A DNA stretch of 64,000 nt, taken from positions 1 to 64,000 of the forward strand of contig CANQMP010000008.1 of NCBI GenBank assembly GCA_947624975.1, read 5' to 3'. This stretch comes from Candidatus Gastranaerophilales bacterium (GTDB taxonomy: Bacteria; Cyanobacteriota; Vampirovibrionia; Gastranaerophilales; Gastranaerophilaceae). The position numbers were made by a program, and so were the translations under genes. The notes beneath the pieces were generated by a model that had not been told where the DNA came from, did no database searches, and saw only the letters and a program-made list of their open reading frames with translations. Below are positions 44,026-62,150 of this stretch, piece by piece; within the stretch, counting starts at the first letter, position 1; the number at the start of each line of letters is the position of its first letter.

Positions 44026-44053
44026 TTGATTTTTTTTATAAACGGGTTATAAT
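44026..44053 (+). promoter_or_regulatory. promoter of antisense RNA, locus 1
   Basis: TTGATT (44026-44031), 16-bp spacer, TATAAT (44048-44053). It drives transcription toward the hydrophobic peptide gene on the opposite strand. Confidence 0.6.
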
Positions 44054-44059
44054 GTAATC

Positions 44060-44153
44060 AAAGGGCATGTGGATGCATTCCGCACTTTAAAAAGCCCTAT
44101 TTGTTGATTTTAAGAGTTAATACAATTAGTAATAAGAGTATTAACTCTTTTTC
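44060..44153 (+). ncRNA. predicted antisense RNA antitoxin, locus 1
   Basis: Roughly 94-nt RNA. The 5' part is GGGC - a GC-richer hairpin (around 44070-44085) - CTTTAAAAA - GCCC, the same layout as the RNAs at 58427 and 58590. It ends with a terminator: AAGAGTTAATAC (44112-44123) and GTATTAACTCTT (44138-44149), a perfect 12-bp stem followed by T residues. The 3' half is antisense to the peptide gene at 44097-44171. This pattern is what type I antitoxins look like; it has not been shown to be transcribed. Confidence 0.6.
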
Positions 44154-44171
44154 ACATATCGTGAAAATCAA
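44097..44171 (-). CDS. small hydrophobic peptide, type I toxin-like, locus 1
   Basis: 24 residues, TTG start at 44171 preceded at seven to eight bases by AAAGGGGGTG. Sequence begins MIFTICEKELILLLL and ends with a Lys/Asn tail (TLKINK). It is the same length as the peptide at 58629-58703, with matching M-I-F-x-I-x-E-K-x-L-I. Coding is supported by the paired leader, the ribosome site and the homologue, not by length. One transmembrane helix is predicted; such peptides depolarise or disrupt the inner membrane when released from antisense control. Confidence 0.6.
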   Translation of the reverse strand: MIFTICEKELILLLLIVLTLKINK

Positions 44172-44198
44172 TTTTATCACCCCCTTTCTCTAAGCTTT

Positions 44199-44252
44199 AC
44201 GATTTACAGTCGTTCTCAATGGAAGGCGGGATTTTTTTTTAGGGCTTACCCT
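44199..44252 (-). promoter_or_regulatory. toxin mRNA 5' leader, locus 1
   Basis: Minus strand leader starts GGGTAAGCCCTA. Its AAGCCCTA can pair perfectly with TAGGGCTT, which begins at the peptide stop codon (44099-44092), closing the mRNA 5' to 3'. Further on is the hairpin ACGACTGTAAATCGT (44213-44199), 15 bases identical to 58746-58732 in locus 2. No strong promoter is recognisable upstream of it here. Confidence 0.55.
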
Positions 44253-44418
44253 TCAAAACAACCTTAACATAAATTTTGCTTTTCTGTAAATATATTTTAA
44301 TAATAATTCCTATATTTGACTTATTAAAATTGAGCGTTAAATATAAAATGCAGAATTCATACGTTAGTATGAGCCTTAAAAACAGGTTTTAGTATATAGT
44401 ATATCTGAGGTCAGACTT

Positions 44419-58396: not shown

Positions 58397-58420
58397 AATT
58401 TTTTTAAAAAGAGTTATAAT
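58393..58420 (+). promoter_or_regulatory. promoter of antisense RNA, locus 2A
   Basis: TTGAAA (58393-58398), 16-bp spacer, TATAAT (58415-58420). Nearly identical in sequence to the promoter at 58555-58583. Confidence 0.65.
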
Positions 58421-58426
58421 AAAAAT

Positions 58427-58524
58427 ATGGGCGGAGCAAATTGACGATTGCTCCTTTAAAAGCCCGAATAGGTTATTCTAGAACTAGTAATATCAGTAAG
58501 AGTATTGCTAGTTCTTCTGTTTTT
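58427..58524 (+). ncRNA. predicted antisense RNA, locus 2A (orphaned copy)
   Basis: Begins ATGGGCGGAGCAAA with the stem GGAGCAA/TTGCTCC, then CTTTAAAAGCCC, the layout shared with 44060 and 58590. Terminator: AGAACTAGTAATA (58480-58492) with TATTGCTAGTTCT (58503-58515), one G-U pair, then TCTGTTTTT. The toxin opposite it is broken, so this RNA may be a leftover or may act in trans on locus 2B. Confidence 0.55.
58473..58523 (-). pseudogene. remnant of hydrophobic toxin peptide, locus 2A
   Basis: Minus strand codons read K-T-E-E-L-A-I-L-L-L-I-L-L-V-L-E-stop, closely like the middle of the intact peptides (E-K-x-L-I...). There is no start codon in frame and the ribosome site and 5' leader are missing; the sequence runs instead into the promoter of copy 2B. 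Best read as a toxin gene whose 5' part was lost in a tandem duplication. Confidence 0.5.
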
Positions 58525-58554
58525 GATGAATGATTTACAAAAAATCATAGGGGG

Positions 58555-58583
58555 TTGAAATTTTTTTAAAAAGGAGTTATAAT
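58555..58583 (+). promoter_or_regulatory. promoter of antisense RNA, locus 2B
   Basis: TTGAAA (58555-58560), 17-bp spacer, TATAAT (58578-58583). Confidence 0.7.
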
Positions 58584-58589
58584 GAAAAT

Positions 58590-58684
58590 AATGGGCGGAG
58601 CAAGTTGGTCCTTGCCCCTTTAAAAGCCCTATAATATGATAGAAAGCACTATTATAATTATCAAGATTATAATTAGTGCTTTTT
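58590..58684 (+). ncRNA. predicted antisense RNA antitoxin, locus 2B
   Basis: Starts near AATGGGCGGAGCAAG, has the GGGC - hairpin - CTTTAAAA - GCCC layout, and ends in a long terminator: AGCACTA plus TTATAAT (58645-58658), loop TATCAAG, ATTATAA, one bulged base, TAGTGCT (to 58680), then T residues. The terminator stem is read from the opposite strand of the toxin's hydrophobic codons. About 95 nt. Confidence 0.65.
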
Positions 58685-58703
58685 CGCTTATCGCGAAAAT
58701 CAT
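58629..58703 (-). CDS. small hydrophobic peptide, type I toxin-like, locus 2B
   Basis: 24 residues, ATG at 58703 with the very strong AAAGGAGGTGG five bases upstream. Sequence MIFAISEKALIIIL, then Ile/Val/Leu to the end, so nearly the whole peptide is one transmembrane helix. Same length and same M-I-F-x-I-x-E-K-x-L-I start as locus 1. Its own promoter and leader, a full-length antisense RNA on the other strand and the second genomic copy together support a type I toxin. Confidence 0.65.
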   Translation of the reverse strand: MIFAISEKALIIILIIIIVLSIIL

Positions 58704-58731
58704 ACTTACCACCTCCTTTCATCTAAACTTC

Positions 58732-58780
58732 ACGATTTACAGTCGTTTTCAGTGAACAGGATTCGGTAATGGGCCTACCC
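58732..58780 (-). promoter_or_regulatory. toxin mRNA 5' leader, locus 2B
   Basis: Minus strand starts GGGTAGGCCCATTACC; GGCCC can pair with GGGCT just after the peptide stop. The hairpin ACGACTGTAAATCGT lies at 58746-58732, identical to locus 1, and flanking bases (AAG.TTAGA..AAAGG.GGTG) are conserved too. Confidence 0.55.
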
Positions 58781-58786
58781 GAAATC

Positions 58787-58815
58787 ATAATACCATATTA
58801 TCAAAAAATTGTAAA
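58787..58815 (-). promoter_or_regulatory. toxin promoter, locus 2B
   Basis: Minus strand TTTACA (58815-58810), 17-bp spacer, TATTAT (58792-58787), then six bases to GGGTA, the predicted 5' end at 58780. Confidence 0.6.
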
Positions 58816-59655: not shown

Positions 59656-60348
59656 ATGAAAAAGTTTTCAAAAGGTTTCACGTTGGCAGAAGTTTTAATA
59701 ACACTTGCTGTCATAGGTGTTGTGGCAGCATTAACTATGCCTGTGATTTATGCAAAAATCGAACGTCATATATTAAATAACCGGTTTAAAAAAATGTATT
59801 CCACCTTATCACAAGTCCTTGAAAAAACACTGTTTGATAAGGGGTATAATATGGGTTGTTATGTAAAATATCCTGCTGGAGGAGGAGATGGACTGACGAC
59901 TGAAAAACACGATACTTCGGGCTGTAAATCATTTTTTATAAATGATTTTCCGGAGAATTTGAGAGTTTTAAAATTATGTGAAAATAATGCTTATACCAAC
60001 GGCTGTTTACCGAATTACGATTGGGGTTTCGCAGGTAGTAGCGGTTGTTCAGGATTTGACTCCGATAACATAAAAACAAAATCAATAGCTATAGTATTAA
60101 GCGATGGCAGTATAATTTTTACTTACGGTATTGATAATCCTATTACTACGTTTGGAATAGATATAAACGGTAAAAAAGGCCCGAATAAGTCAGGATATGA
60201 TATATATTCATTAAATTTAGTGATGAATGATAATGGTAACAGTATCAAATTATCAGGTCAGCCTTTCAAGGGAAGACCAGTTATAACAAATTGTCTGCCT
60301 GCAACTGATGACGGAGGCGTAAAATATCTTGACGAAATTATGAAATAA
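59656..60348 (+). CDS. type IV pilin-like protein
   Basis: 230 residues, ATG with GAGGT upstream. Leader MKKFSKG|FTLAEVLITLA has the classic Gly at -1 and Glu at +5. One hydrophobic helix, then a variable Gly/Ser/Asn-rich domain with Cys (GCYVK, GCKSF, LCENN, GCLPN, GCSGF, NCLPA). Differs in its C-terminus from the DYP.KL subfamily. Divergent HTH gene upstream; unlike the other pilin-like genes, no repeat island follows, the next gene starting 25 bases on. Confidence 0.87.
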   Translation: MKKFSKGFTLAEVLITLAVIGVVAALTMPVIYAKIERHILNNRFKKMYSTLSQVLEKTLFDKGYNMGCYVKYPAGGGDGLTTEKHDTSGCKSFFINDFPENLRVLKLCENNAYTNGCLPNYDWGFAGSSGCSGFDSDNIKTKSIAIVLSDGSIIFTYGIDNPITTFGIDINGKKGPNKSGYDIYSLNLVMNDNGNSIKLSGQPFKGRPVITNCLPATDDGGVKYLDEIMK

Positions 60349-61943: not shown

Positions 61944-62091
61944 AAAGTCCCTTCACATATCACATCCATATCGGTTAGGACTCTAAATTTGTCAAACTAA
62001 CGGAAAGGAGGTGGTAGAGGCTCAGCATATCTGAGAATGTTGCGTATCTTGCTGATAATAACAGCGCTAAAACACAAATAATAGGGACTTT
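61944..62091 (+). other. structured intergenic element, possible third toxin-antitoxin locus
   Basis: AAAGTCCCT (61944-61952) can pair over nine bases with AGGGACTTT (62083-62091), the same 5' to 3' closure as locus 1. Between them is AAAGGAGGTGGTA (62005-62017), identical over 13 bases to the locus 2B ribosome site. The 15-base leader hairpin of loci 1 and 2 is not conserved here. A -10 TATAAG (61925-61930) lies six bases before the GGGTA-like start of the element. Confidence 0.45.
62037..62081 (+). CDS. putative 14-residue hydrophobic peptide
   Basis: MLRILLIITALKHK. The strong ribosome site is 22 bases upstream, but a CTCAG-CATAT-CTGAG hairpin (62021-62035) between them could bring it into range. 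It lacks the MIF.I.EK motif, so membership in the family rests on layout only. Confidence 0.3.
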   Translation: MLRILLIITALKHK

Positions 62092-62121
62092 ATCAGGTGT
62101 TAACCCACCCGTAACCTTTTT

Positions 62122-62150
62122 AATATAAACCATGTTTTAATATTTTTCAA
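62122..62150 (-). promoter_or_regulatory. antisense promoter, locus 3
   Basis: Minus strand TTGAAA (62150-62145), 17-bp spacer, TATATT (62127-62122). The RNA would begin near GGTTACGGGTGGG and show GGG - stem GGTG/CACC - AAAG - TCCC, parallel to the antisense RNAs of loci 1 and 2. No clear terminator stem is seen. Confidence 0.5.

Follow-up and report, generated by a model that had tools for sequence, protein, structure and literature searches.

At positions 44026-44252 of a 64,000-nt stretch of Candidatus Gastranaerophilales DNA (contig CANQMP010000008.1 of assembly GCA_947624975.1; order Gastranaerophilales, family Gastranaerophilaceae), which we call the window and whose positions serve as coordinates throughout, lies a small locus with two opposed transcription units, one predicted to encode a 24-residue hydrophobic peptide and the other an antisense RNA that ends within the peptide frame. 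With a probability that we put at about three in four, it represents a new family of convergent, 3'-overlapping chromosomal type I toxin-antitoxin modules, for which par/Fst and TxpA/RatA are, on the best reading of the sequences, the closest plans. Statistics over related loci demonstrate coding, overlapping covarying hairpins, locus-specific pairings, a conserved antisense promoter and a multi-copy, patchy distribution; we infer expression, toxicity and repression, with its route. A candidate type I system had been proposed here from the letters of the window alone (the sequence-only reading), and the coding frame, the locus-specific pairings, the antisense promoter and the covarying terminator support that candidate. 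The locus proved to be real and part of something much larger than noted then: the terminator is embedded in the frame, the locus belongs to a multi-copy family, and other peptides are found on the same layout.

Anatomy of the locus

The sequence-only reading had described a 24-codon, TTG-start hydrophobic frame behind a Shine-Dalgarno sequence (SD), together with an antisense promoter and a 12-bp terminator bounding an RNA of about 94 nt, and each of these was found at its claimed position (Table 1). The mRNA-like unit spans 44251 to about 44055 on the minus strand. The pairing claimed between its 5' leader and the stop region was borne out by the complementarity of AAGCCCTA (44247-44240) to TAGGGCTT (44099-44092), which was also picked up as an inverted repeat. 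Folding of the 101-nt plus strand (z = -6.1) and of the 205-nt minus strand (z = -5.2) was beyond chance, with 0 of 200 shuffles equally stable in either case, and the anatomy recurs in relatives: 17 aligned loci have in common promoter, 5' end, leader, SD, frame, 3' segment and antisense promoter. All the elements that the earlier description had listed are thus present; what did not stand is the implied quality of the promoter on the peptide strand, which is poorer. No Rfam family of known structured RNA (6S, SRP, tmRNA etc.) matched at its gathering score in the window, matches at the locus lying far below that score, and no tRNA or tmRNA was found.

Table 1. Features of the 44026-44252 locus and the further copies in the window (R1, covariance model described in the text; H2 and H3, hairpins).
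Feature	Position	Strand	Basis
Antisense RNA promoter: TTGATT (44026-44031), 16 nt, TATAAT (44048-44053)	44026..44053	+	sequence
Predicted antisense (antitoxin) RNA, about 94 nt	44060..44153	+	ends inferred from promoter and terminator positions
Intrinsic terminator of antisense RNA, helix H2: 12-bp stem 44112-44123 with 44138-44149, then TTTTT; inside peptide frame	44112..44152	+	sequence, fold, covariation, G-U strand test, synonymous-codon shuffle
Peptide coding sequence MIFTICEKELILLLLIVLTLKINK, 24 codons, TTG start 44171-44169, TAG stop 44099-44097; predicted toxin	44097..44171	-	coding signature in relatives
SD AAAGGGGGTG	44187-44178	-	with following AT, 12 nt complementary to 16S 3' end, one G-U
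5' leader, covarying stem-loop	44188..44251	-	leader alignment, pairing test
mRNA 5' end GGGTAAGCCCTA; pairs with 3' segment 44099-44092	44240..44251	-	fold, cognate-versus-swapped test
mRNA 3' region: TAGGGCTT, hairpin H3, GCCCTT; predicted toxin-mRNA 3' end/terminator, equal to 5' hairpin of antisense RNA	44060..44099	-	fold
Sense promoter, poor match: TTTACA, 18 nt, TAAGGT	44290-44261	-	read by eye; letters checked
Second copy, intact (58578-58780): coding sequence 58703-58629 MIFAISEKALIIILIIIIVLSIIL, mRNA from 58780, promoter TTTACA N17 TATTAT	58585..58815	-	R1 130.8 bits
Third copy, antisense-only remnant: SD and start gone; antisense promoter, H3 and in-frame terminator kept	58415..58548	-	R1 63.3 bits
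Fourth copy, decayed: SD retained, start codon not in place	62004..62127	+	R1 57.5 bits

The peptide frame is coding

Related loci were collected in two ways. A DNA search of 58 related genomes picked up the window's second copy, along with homologous loci from many genomes of the same genus; at E <= 1 all 58 genomes matched, an uninformative result, as most of these matches resemble chance similarity of AT-rich sequence, and matches below about 1e-5 were used. A scan of 84,980 species genomes for an SD-plus-FxxxxEK pattern gave at least 122 matches, and among those listed at least 77 belong to this family, a count to be read as a lower bound, at least 34 are pilin-like genes and at least 11 are others, the latter two sets being dropped. 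The pilin-like matches (EKGQGLVEYALILVLVAIVV; L021, L022, L024 etc.), mostly from Chloroflexi/Anaerolineae where labelled, apparently overlap the pattern by chance. Parsing of loci required K[AE]L in the peptide, which leaves diverged copies, for example one in L015, uncounted. An alignment (A3) was made of 63 of 80 parsed loci, those with no -10-like motif or more than 93% alike having been dropped, and a covariance model from SD to antisense -10 (R1) was built from 63 loci. The 5' end or the -10 could not be placed in 6 of 86 loci, and L039, with a misplaced 5' end, was excluded from the pairing, SD-openness, codon-difference, hairpin-strand and promoter tests.

Judged by its pattern of substitution, the peptide frame is coding. 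At four of the codons in the loop of H2, codon position 2 is T in 63 of 63 rows of A3, and the entropies at positions 1, 2 and 3 of the loop codons are 0.86, 0.11 and 1.20 bits. Single-base differences to the nearest neighbour in the loop codons comprised 63 synonymous and 34 non-synonymous changes, with 24% synonymous expected; 29 of the 34 exchanged one hydrophobic residue for another, giving 92 of 97 synonymous or hydrophobic differences versus 66% expected. The check that had been suggested for the frame, its conservation across relatives, therefore came out in its favour, the frame and its hydrophobic second-position T pattern being kept under mostly synonymous change. The start codon is GTG in 48, ATG in 24 and TTG in 14 of the 86 parsed loci, and the SD stands 3-8 nt from one of these in all 86, a nearby start having been required by the parsing. 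Moreover, 12 nt of complementarity link the SD AAAGGRGGTGAT with ATCACCTCCTTT, the 16S end taken from three 16S genes in relatives; relatives' 16S end also reads GGATCACCTCCTTT. The 14-base pattern of the 16S end is missing from the window genome, and its first 13 bases occur in 4 of 33 genomes of the genus, probably because such assemblies often lack rRNA.

The consensus of 16 peptides is MIFSITEKALxLILLIILxLKxx, of which the MIF.I.EK motif noted earlier is one variant form. That motif had not been recognised from any described family, and profile searches gave no convincing family match. Pfam returned no family for the 16 peptides, short peptides giving profiles little power; NCBIfam gave weak TatA-like matches for 3 of 16 (best E 0.046) and PHROG one at E 4.5, which we read as generic membrane-helix matches. 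Nine variant peptides (see below) searched together with that of the window produced one TatA_B_E match below the cut-off and another match at E 0.87, neither convincing.

A conserved antisense promoter and a predicted terminator inside the frame

Every one of the 79 loci has an antisense promoter with a score of 9 of 12 or more, a level reached by 22% of shuffles; its -10 was partly preselected by the parsing. As loci were parsed with a -10-like motif, the -35 is the freer test, and it reads TTGAAA in 62 of 79 loci.

Two hairpins fall within the frame, H1 (A3 columns 26-30 with 36-40, codons 3-7) and H2 (columns 43-51 with 70-78, codons 8-20). Taken together, and with the outer H1 pairs and the first H2 pairs overlapping the search pattern, they are paired in 93.3% of cells (80.2% shuffled), show 114 double-change cells (36 shuffled; at most 16 in slid controls) and reach a covariation of 0.335 (0.117 shuffled; at most 0.071 slid). 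The number of pairs with a double change (7 versus 6.4 shuffled) and of further pair types (16 versus 17.6) was unremarkable beside the shuffled values. Since the H2 arms pair within the frame, codons 9 and 19 change together: among 63 loci the combinations are GCA-GTG (18), GCG-GCG (16), GAA-GTT (5) and GAG-ACT (3), with the wobble combinations GCG-GCA (10), GCG-ACG (7), GCA-GCG (3) and GAG-GCT (1).

Wobble pairs bear on the strand on which a hairpin is read. H2 contains 28 cells that are A-C in mRNA orientation, equivalent to G-U on the antisense strand, versus 4 G-U cells on the mRNA strand; restricted to pairs 47-74 and 50-71, at which the antisense reading gains nothing from synonymous substitution, the count is 10 antisense versus 0. 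In H1 there are 3 antisense-strand and 7 mRNA-strand G-U cells. For the third hairpin, H3, the mRNA strand gives the more stable fold in 57 of 79 loci and the antisense strand in 13, with G-U in 106 of 987 predicted pairs on the former and 74 of 966 on the latter. When each open reading frame (ORF) was compared with 60 peptide-preserving synonymous shuffles at the 5% level, 81 of the 84 distinct ORFs of the main family, and all 34 of the variants, folded better than the shuffles on the antisense strand. On these comparative grounds the toxin codons contain the antisense terminator, which covaries and has its G-U pairs mainly on the antisense strand; termination there is predicted.

H1 is itself a second covarying hairpin (window 44151-44165; TTCAGTataACTGAA and variants), which some variant peptides, by eye, seem to lack.

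Leader stem and 5'-3' pairing

The leader stem and the pairing of the two mRNA ends are, on average, locus-specific. Leader arms scored -11.15 with their own partner versus -7.47 with that of other loci (56 of 79 loci, those with the placing core and distinct arms), and after thinning to 35 loci -10.41 cognate versus -7.18 swapped, with 0 of 5000 permutations reaching this. The mRNA 5' end paired with the segment after the stop at -12.05 for its own versus -10.77 for swapped partners (n = 78), and at -12.54 versus -10.66 after thinning to 41, again with 0 of 5000 permutations. This 5'-3' pairing is preserved with differing letters among loci (GCCC/GGGC, CTTCC/GGAAG, ATGCCC/GGGCAT).

A leader alignment (A4) took in 48 of 65 thinned leaders, the 17 omitted ones mostly having another apical loop. 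In its 48 rows the apical core AC...AAAT (window 44202-44210) is nearly invariant and may possibly be a contact site in this subset. In the 44026-44252 copy, the stretch around the start codon, TTGATTTT (44164-44171), is perfectly complementary to AAAATCAA (44104-44111) near the end of the frame, a pairing that could close the start codon within the mRNA of this copy.

Distribution of the family

R1 matched 24 of 33 genomes of the same genus and 19 of the 27 of high quality. In an order sample it matched 146 of 383 genomes and 33 of 52 genera, 137 of these genomes lying in the family of the window and 9, with weak matches, across three other families. In a phylum sample 77 of 386 genomes and 20 of 142 genera were matched, all within the order of the window, and no genome outside that order was matched among the 386; the rise from 52 to 142 genera between the two samples suggests that the latter reaches about 90 genera beyond the order. 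Taxon labels agree in part, 48 family records among the pattern matches listed including 26 labelled Candidatus Gastranaerophilales, 4 Candidatus Melainabacteria and 1 Cyanobacteria bacterium, and 3 labelled otherwise (Fusobacterium sp. CAG:439, Heliobacteriaceae bacterium, and Candidatus Scatousia, placed by NCBI in Bacteria incertae sedis).

A genome may hold up to eight R1 matches (G028 in the genus sample, G080 in the order sample), and contig 34 of G080 bears tandem copies about 300 bases apart. Occupancy of sites is patchy. Of 33 genus genomes, 29 have the 83-aa gene that adjoins the window copy (30 loci), and an SD motif within 620 bases upstream of it, or up to the locus edge, was seen in 1 of 29 parsed loci, that of the window itself; at greater distance, five of the remaining loci contain strong R1 copies, and the unparsed locus contains a weak one (22.6 bits). 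Sites of the family thus appear, from this patchiness, to be gained and lost.

An origin from phages or plasmids was rejected: the window copy 44026-44252 had no blastn match in phage and plasmid collections, and just two pattern matches fell in viral contigs, one of them (L214) weak by the model at 26.4 bits.

Other copies in the window and the genome

According to R1 the window contains four copies of the family, two with intact peptides, one decayed and one with the antisense gene only. The antisense RNA of the second copy would run from about 58590 to 58685 (+), from TTGAAA at 58555 and TATAAT at 58578. The two intact copies are 71% identical across the matched stretch, and their predicted mRNA-antisense duplexes reach -156 and -169 kcal/mol for cognate versus -47 and -44 kcal/mol for non-cognate partners. 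Directly beside the intact second copy, the antisense-only remnant might act as an orphan antidote resident in the genome. Another contig of the genome (C11:16553-16691; R1 42.2 bits) carries a fifth locus, alike in layout and with MDRLILKKALLGVRLFIDFLVYII as its peptide.

In other genomes, L217 (201-449) and L220 (201-329) have a toxin part interrupted or replaced by other sequence and an antisense end that looks intact. Within the window, a 230-aa open frame at 59656-60348 (+) begins with MKKFSKGFTLAEVLITLAVIGVVAALTMP, and by this motif we take it to resemble a type IV pilin or pseudopilin.

The same layout with other peptides

Weak R1 matches, from other families and from the genus, mostly keep the arrangement of the main family, running from SD through in-frame palindrome, G-rich 3' segment and hairpin to antisense -10, but with other peptides, among them MKVKFAVSERELLILVIVILLLYGKKDLVEILSLLLH, MKLRAIKKALLVIELLIKLILVVIN, MSKRMIKTVITVIITVLEIILKRM and MKTDIIKRVLNAVGLFLQIISLFI. 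Under first, stricter frame criteria no short peptide was found in 17 of 37 variant loci; looser criteria gave an intact-looking frame in 34 of 39 variant places, two of them with CTG as sole start, and none in five. The synonymous-shuffle test took in these 34, the places omitted for want of an intact frame being in L217, L220, L224 and, twice, L227. An alignment of 26 of the 39 places (A5) was gappy and yielded no consensus base pair, for which reason the model built from these 26 variants (R2) uses sequence only; L216, L218 and L241 among them have an EK[EG]L-like peptide. R2 recovers loci scored as main family by R1, down to E 4e-16 (G097), and in a class sample it matched 132 of 382 genomes and 30 of 97 genera, all listed matched genomes belonging to the same order. 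The RNA chassis of main and variant loci is taken to share common descent, convergence of its parts being the alternative. L252 (1100-2029), from another family (f2), has three copies in tandem, whose peptides are long and which share the 3' hairpin stretch GGGTGTTAGCGCACCCC.

The evidence is evenly poised on a further proposal, that the inherited unit would be this RNA chassis (promoter pair, leader, extended SD, codon-embedded terminator and 3' hairpin) and not the toxin, and that it would carry EKAL-, KKALLVIELLIKLIL-, KKELVDILTLL- and IIKxALxxxGHILQIIS-type peptides. As the terminator and the antisense target are made of peptide codons, changes in the peptide would also alter the antidote, so that paralogues would become mutually immune pairs, with residues covarying via the RNA and not through protein contacts.

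Proposed mechanism and alternative explanations

The predicted features are those expected of a type I system: a short hydrophobic peptide with its own ribosome site, and an antisense RNA with promoter, terminator and complementarity. In the model that we favour, an mRNA of about 197 nt, with a ribosome-binding site close to perfect, would encode the hydrophobic peptide of 24 residues, which probably inserts into the membrane. The 5' end of the mRNA would pair just beyond the stop and its leader stem-loop would adjoin the ribosome site, and both may keep the full-length mRNA poorly translated. The better promoter on the opposite strand would produce the antisense RNA, some 94 nt long, whose complementarity takes in 57 of the 75 nt of the frame, beginning near codon 7, and the 3' segment, the ribosome site being excluded; this RNA would pair at the 3' hairpin and displace the 5'-3' clasp, leading to duplex cleavage or to a refolded, silent mRNA. 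The sequences are compatible with an antisense RNA that competes with the mRNA 5' end for the 3' target, as the sequence-only reading had supposed. Because the ribosome site would be left free, control is expected via duplex cleavage or refolding, as with RatA and SR4 (PMC6562991), and not by direct block, as with Sib (PMC4147584). The antisense RNA would end at the terminator whose arms and U-tract lie in the peptide codons (EK-[AE]-L ... [AVT]-L-K), and toxin sequence and antitoxin terminator would for that reason evolve together.

A number of observations weigh against this interpretation. Loci were gathered or parsed by means of the SD, K[AE]L, part of FxxxxEK and a -10-like motif, which makes the conservation of these elements partly a product of the sampling; owing to the relatedness of the loci, shuffle counts are not probabilities; and 9 of the 33 same-genus genomes gave no R1 match. 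Of the 28 antisense G-U cells in H2, 13 (pairs 45-76 and 46-75) could stem from synonymous third-position changes, and the folding energy of H2 favours the antisense strand in just 42 of 67 loci and the mRNA strand in 24. The mRNA strand also beats synonymous shuffles, in 79 of 84 main and 32 of 34 variant ORFs; with both strands folding well, this test reveals selected palindromes and not their strand. A locus's own leader partner ranked first in its row in just 10 of 56 cases (median rank 3.5), and its own 3' segment had a median rank of 22 of 78. The sense promoter of the 44026-44252 copy is poor, the scan reaching 8 of 12 with hexamers other than TTTACA/TAAGGT, and across the family it is moderately conserved (at least 9 of 12 in 49 of 79 loci versus 24% of shuffles). 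Finally, the SD core is predicted to be more open at the 44026-44252 copy (0.31-0.33) than with shuffled leaders (0.24), likewise at the second copy (0.34 versus 0.25), and the effect across the family is small (median 0.20 versus 0.27 shuffled; 58 of 78 lower). Openness thus falls slightly over the family as a whole and does not fall at the two intact copies in the window; a translational lock by the leader on its own would go beyond these data, and strong hiding of the SD as the main lock found no support at those copies.

An unlikely alternative is that the peptide is a small regulatory or stress membrane peptide under antisense RNA control, which would tune membrane function without toxicity. 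The same evidence fits it, the peptides being short and hydrophobic and toxicity being nothing that sequence can reveal; yet multi-copy, patchy, tandem and decaying copies together with an antisense-only remnant better fit toxin-antitoxin turnover, and the variants combine a common RNA layout with widely differing peptides. It is very improbable that the locus is a pair of structured non-coding RNAs whose frame is an untranslated by-product of palindromes: the frame is indeed largely palindromic, with the conserved EK and L in or beside hairpin arms, but the H2-loop codons outside the arms are still NTN with mostly synonymous change, and the SD combines its 12-nt complementarity to the 16S end with the 3-8 nt spacing to a start already described (a start being required in parsing). 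We give just as little credence to a dispersed repeat, of the kind of miniature inverted-repeat transposable elements (MITE) or repetitive extragenic palindromes (REP), spread by transposition without gene function, for while several copies per genome, patchy sites and degenerate copies would suit it, intact window copies only 71% identical are unlike recent transposition, coding and pairing constraint are retained across copies, and phage and plasmid links amount to the two viral-contig pattern matches, with no blastn match of the 44026-44252 copy.

Comparison with known type I systems

Toxins of the TxpA/BsrG/BsrE/YonT type are longer than the 24-residue peptide found here, and Ibs is, like it, a very short hydrophobic peptide.

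The candidate type I modules described above resemble par/Fst strongly in structure, with convergent promoters, a short hydrophobic peptide, a 3'-overlapping antisense RNA, an mRNA 5' helix, a leader stem-loop at the SD and a GTG start (Fst plan from PMC7472228). The Fst RNAs have one common bidirectional terminator and use direct repeats, DRa and DRb, at the initiation site. Here, in contrast, the two RNAs seem to end at separate terminators, that of the antisense RNA lying inside the ORF, and an Fst-type shared bidirectional terminator was rejected, H2 (in the ORF) and H3 (3' of the stop) being separate hairpins with opposite strand preferences. Furthermore, the predicted antisense RNA ends before the start codon and crosses no direct repeats at the initiation site. 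No DRa/DRb-like repeats were found there in 44026-44260, where the only direct repeat of at least 8 nt is a 10-nt T-rich pair elsewhere; the second copy has two chance-like 8-nt direct repeats, one touching the start codon. The PXXXG motif of Fst/Ldr occurs in 0 of 74 distinct peptides.

In TxpA/RatA, BsrG/SR4, BsrE/SR5 and YonT/SR6 of Bacillus subtilis 100-140 bp of duplex form between the antisense RNA and the 3' part of the toxin mRNA, and the SDs of TxpA and YonT have more than 11 bp of complementarity to 16S rRNA (PMC6562991); a predicted overlap of 94-96 nt and the 12-nt SD complementarity place the present loci close to this group. YonT has 58 residues (PMC5848175). Ibs/Sib of Escherichia coli is likewise a multi-copy chromosomal repeat of about 140 nt with an antisense RNA over the coding region (PMC4147584); Sib spans the whole frame and the ribosome site, whereas here the antisense RNA stops in the frame, 24 nt short of the SD. 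MsoT1/MsoA1 of Microcystis aeruginosa is, like the present modules, a candidate type I system from the wider cyanobacterial lineage (PMC12390103); MsoT1 is set apart by two predicted membrane helices and a His-tagged size of about 8.8 kDa. The Microcystis locus is termed in that paper the first type I system outside Proteobacteria, Firmicutes and Tenericutes. A literature search that left most subscription journals uncovered found no paper on type I systems in Melainabacteria, and queries for Gastranaerophilales small RNAs and for cyanobacterial hydrophobic peptides and antisense RNAs returned unrelated papers only.

The family would extend type I systems to the Melainabacteria of the gut, as yet uncultured, in whose genomes the model finds as many as eight matches. 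It would also offer a natural case in which one DNA stretch specifies a membrane peptide and, read backwards, a transcription terminator, with coupled amino-acid changes because RNA pairing constrains the codons. The layout, in turn, may serve as a searchable signature for further peptide toxins that have little sequence in common.
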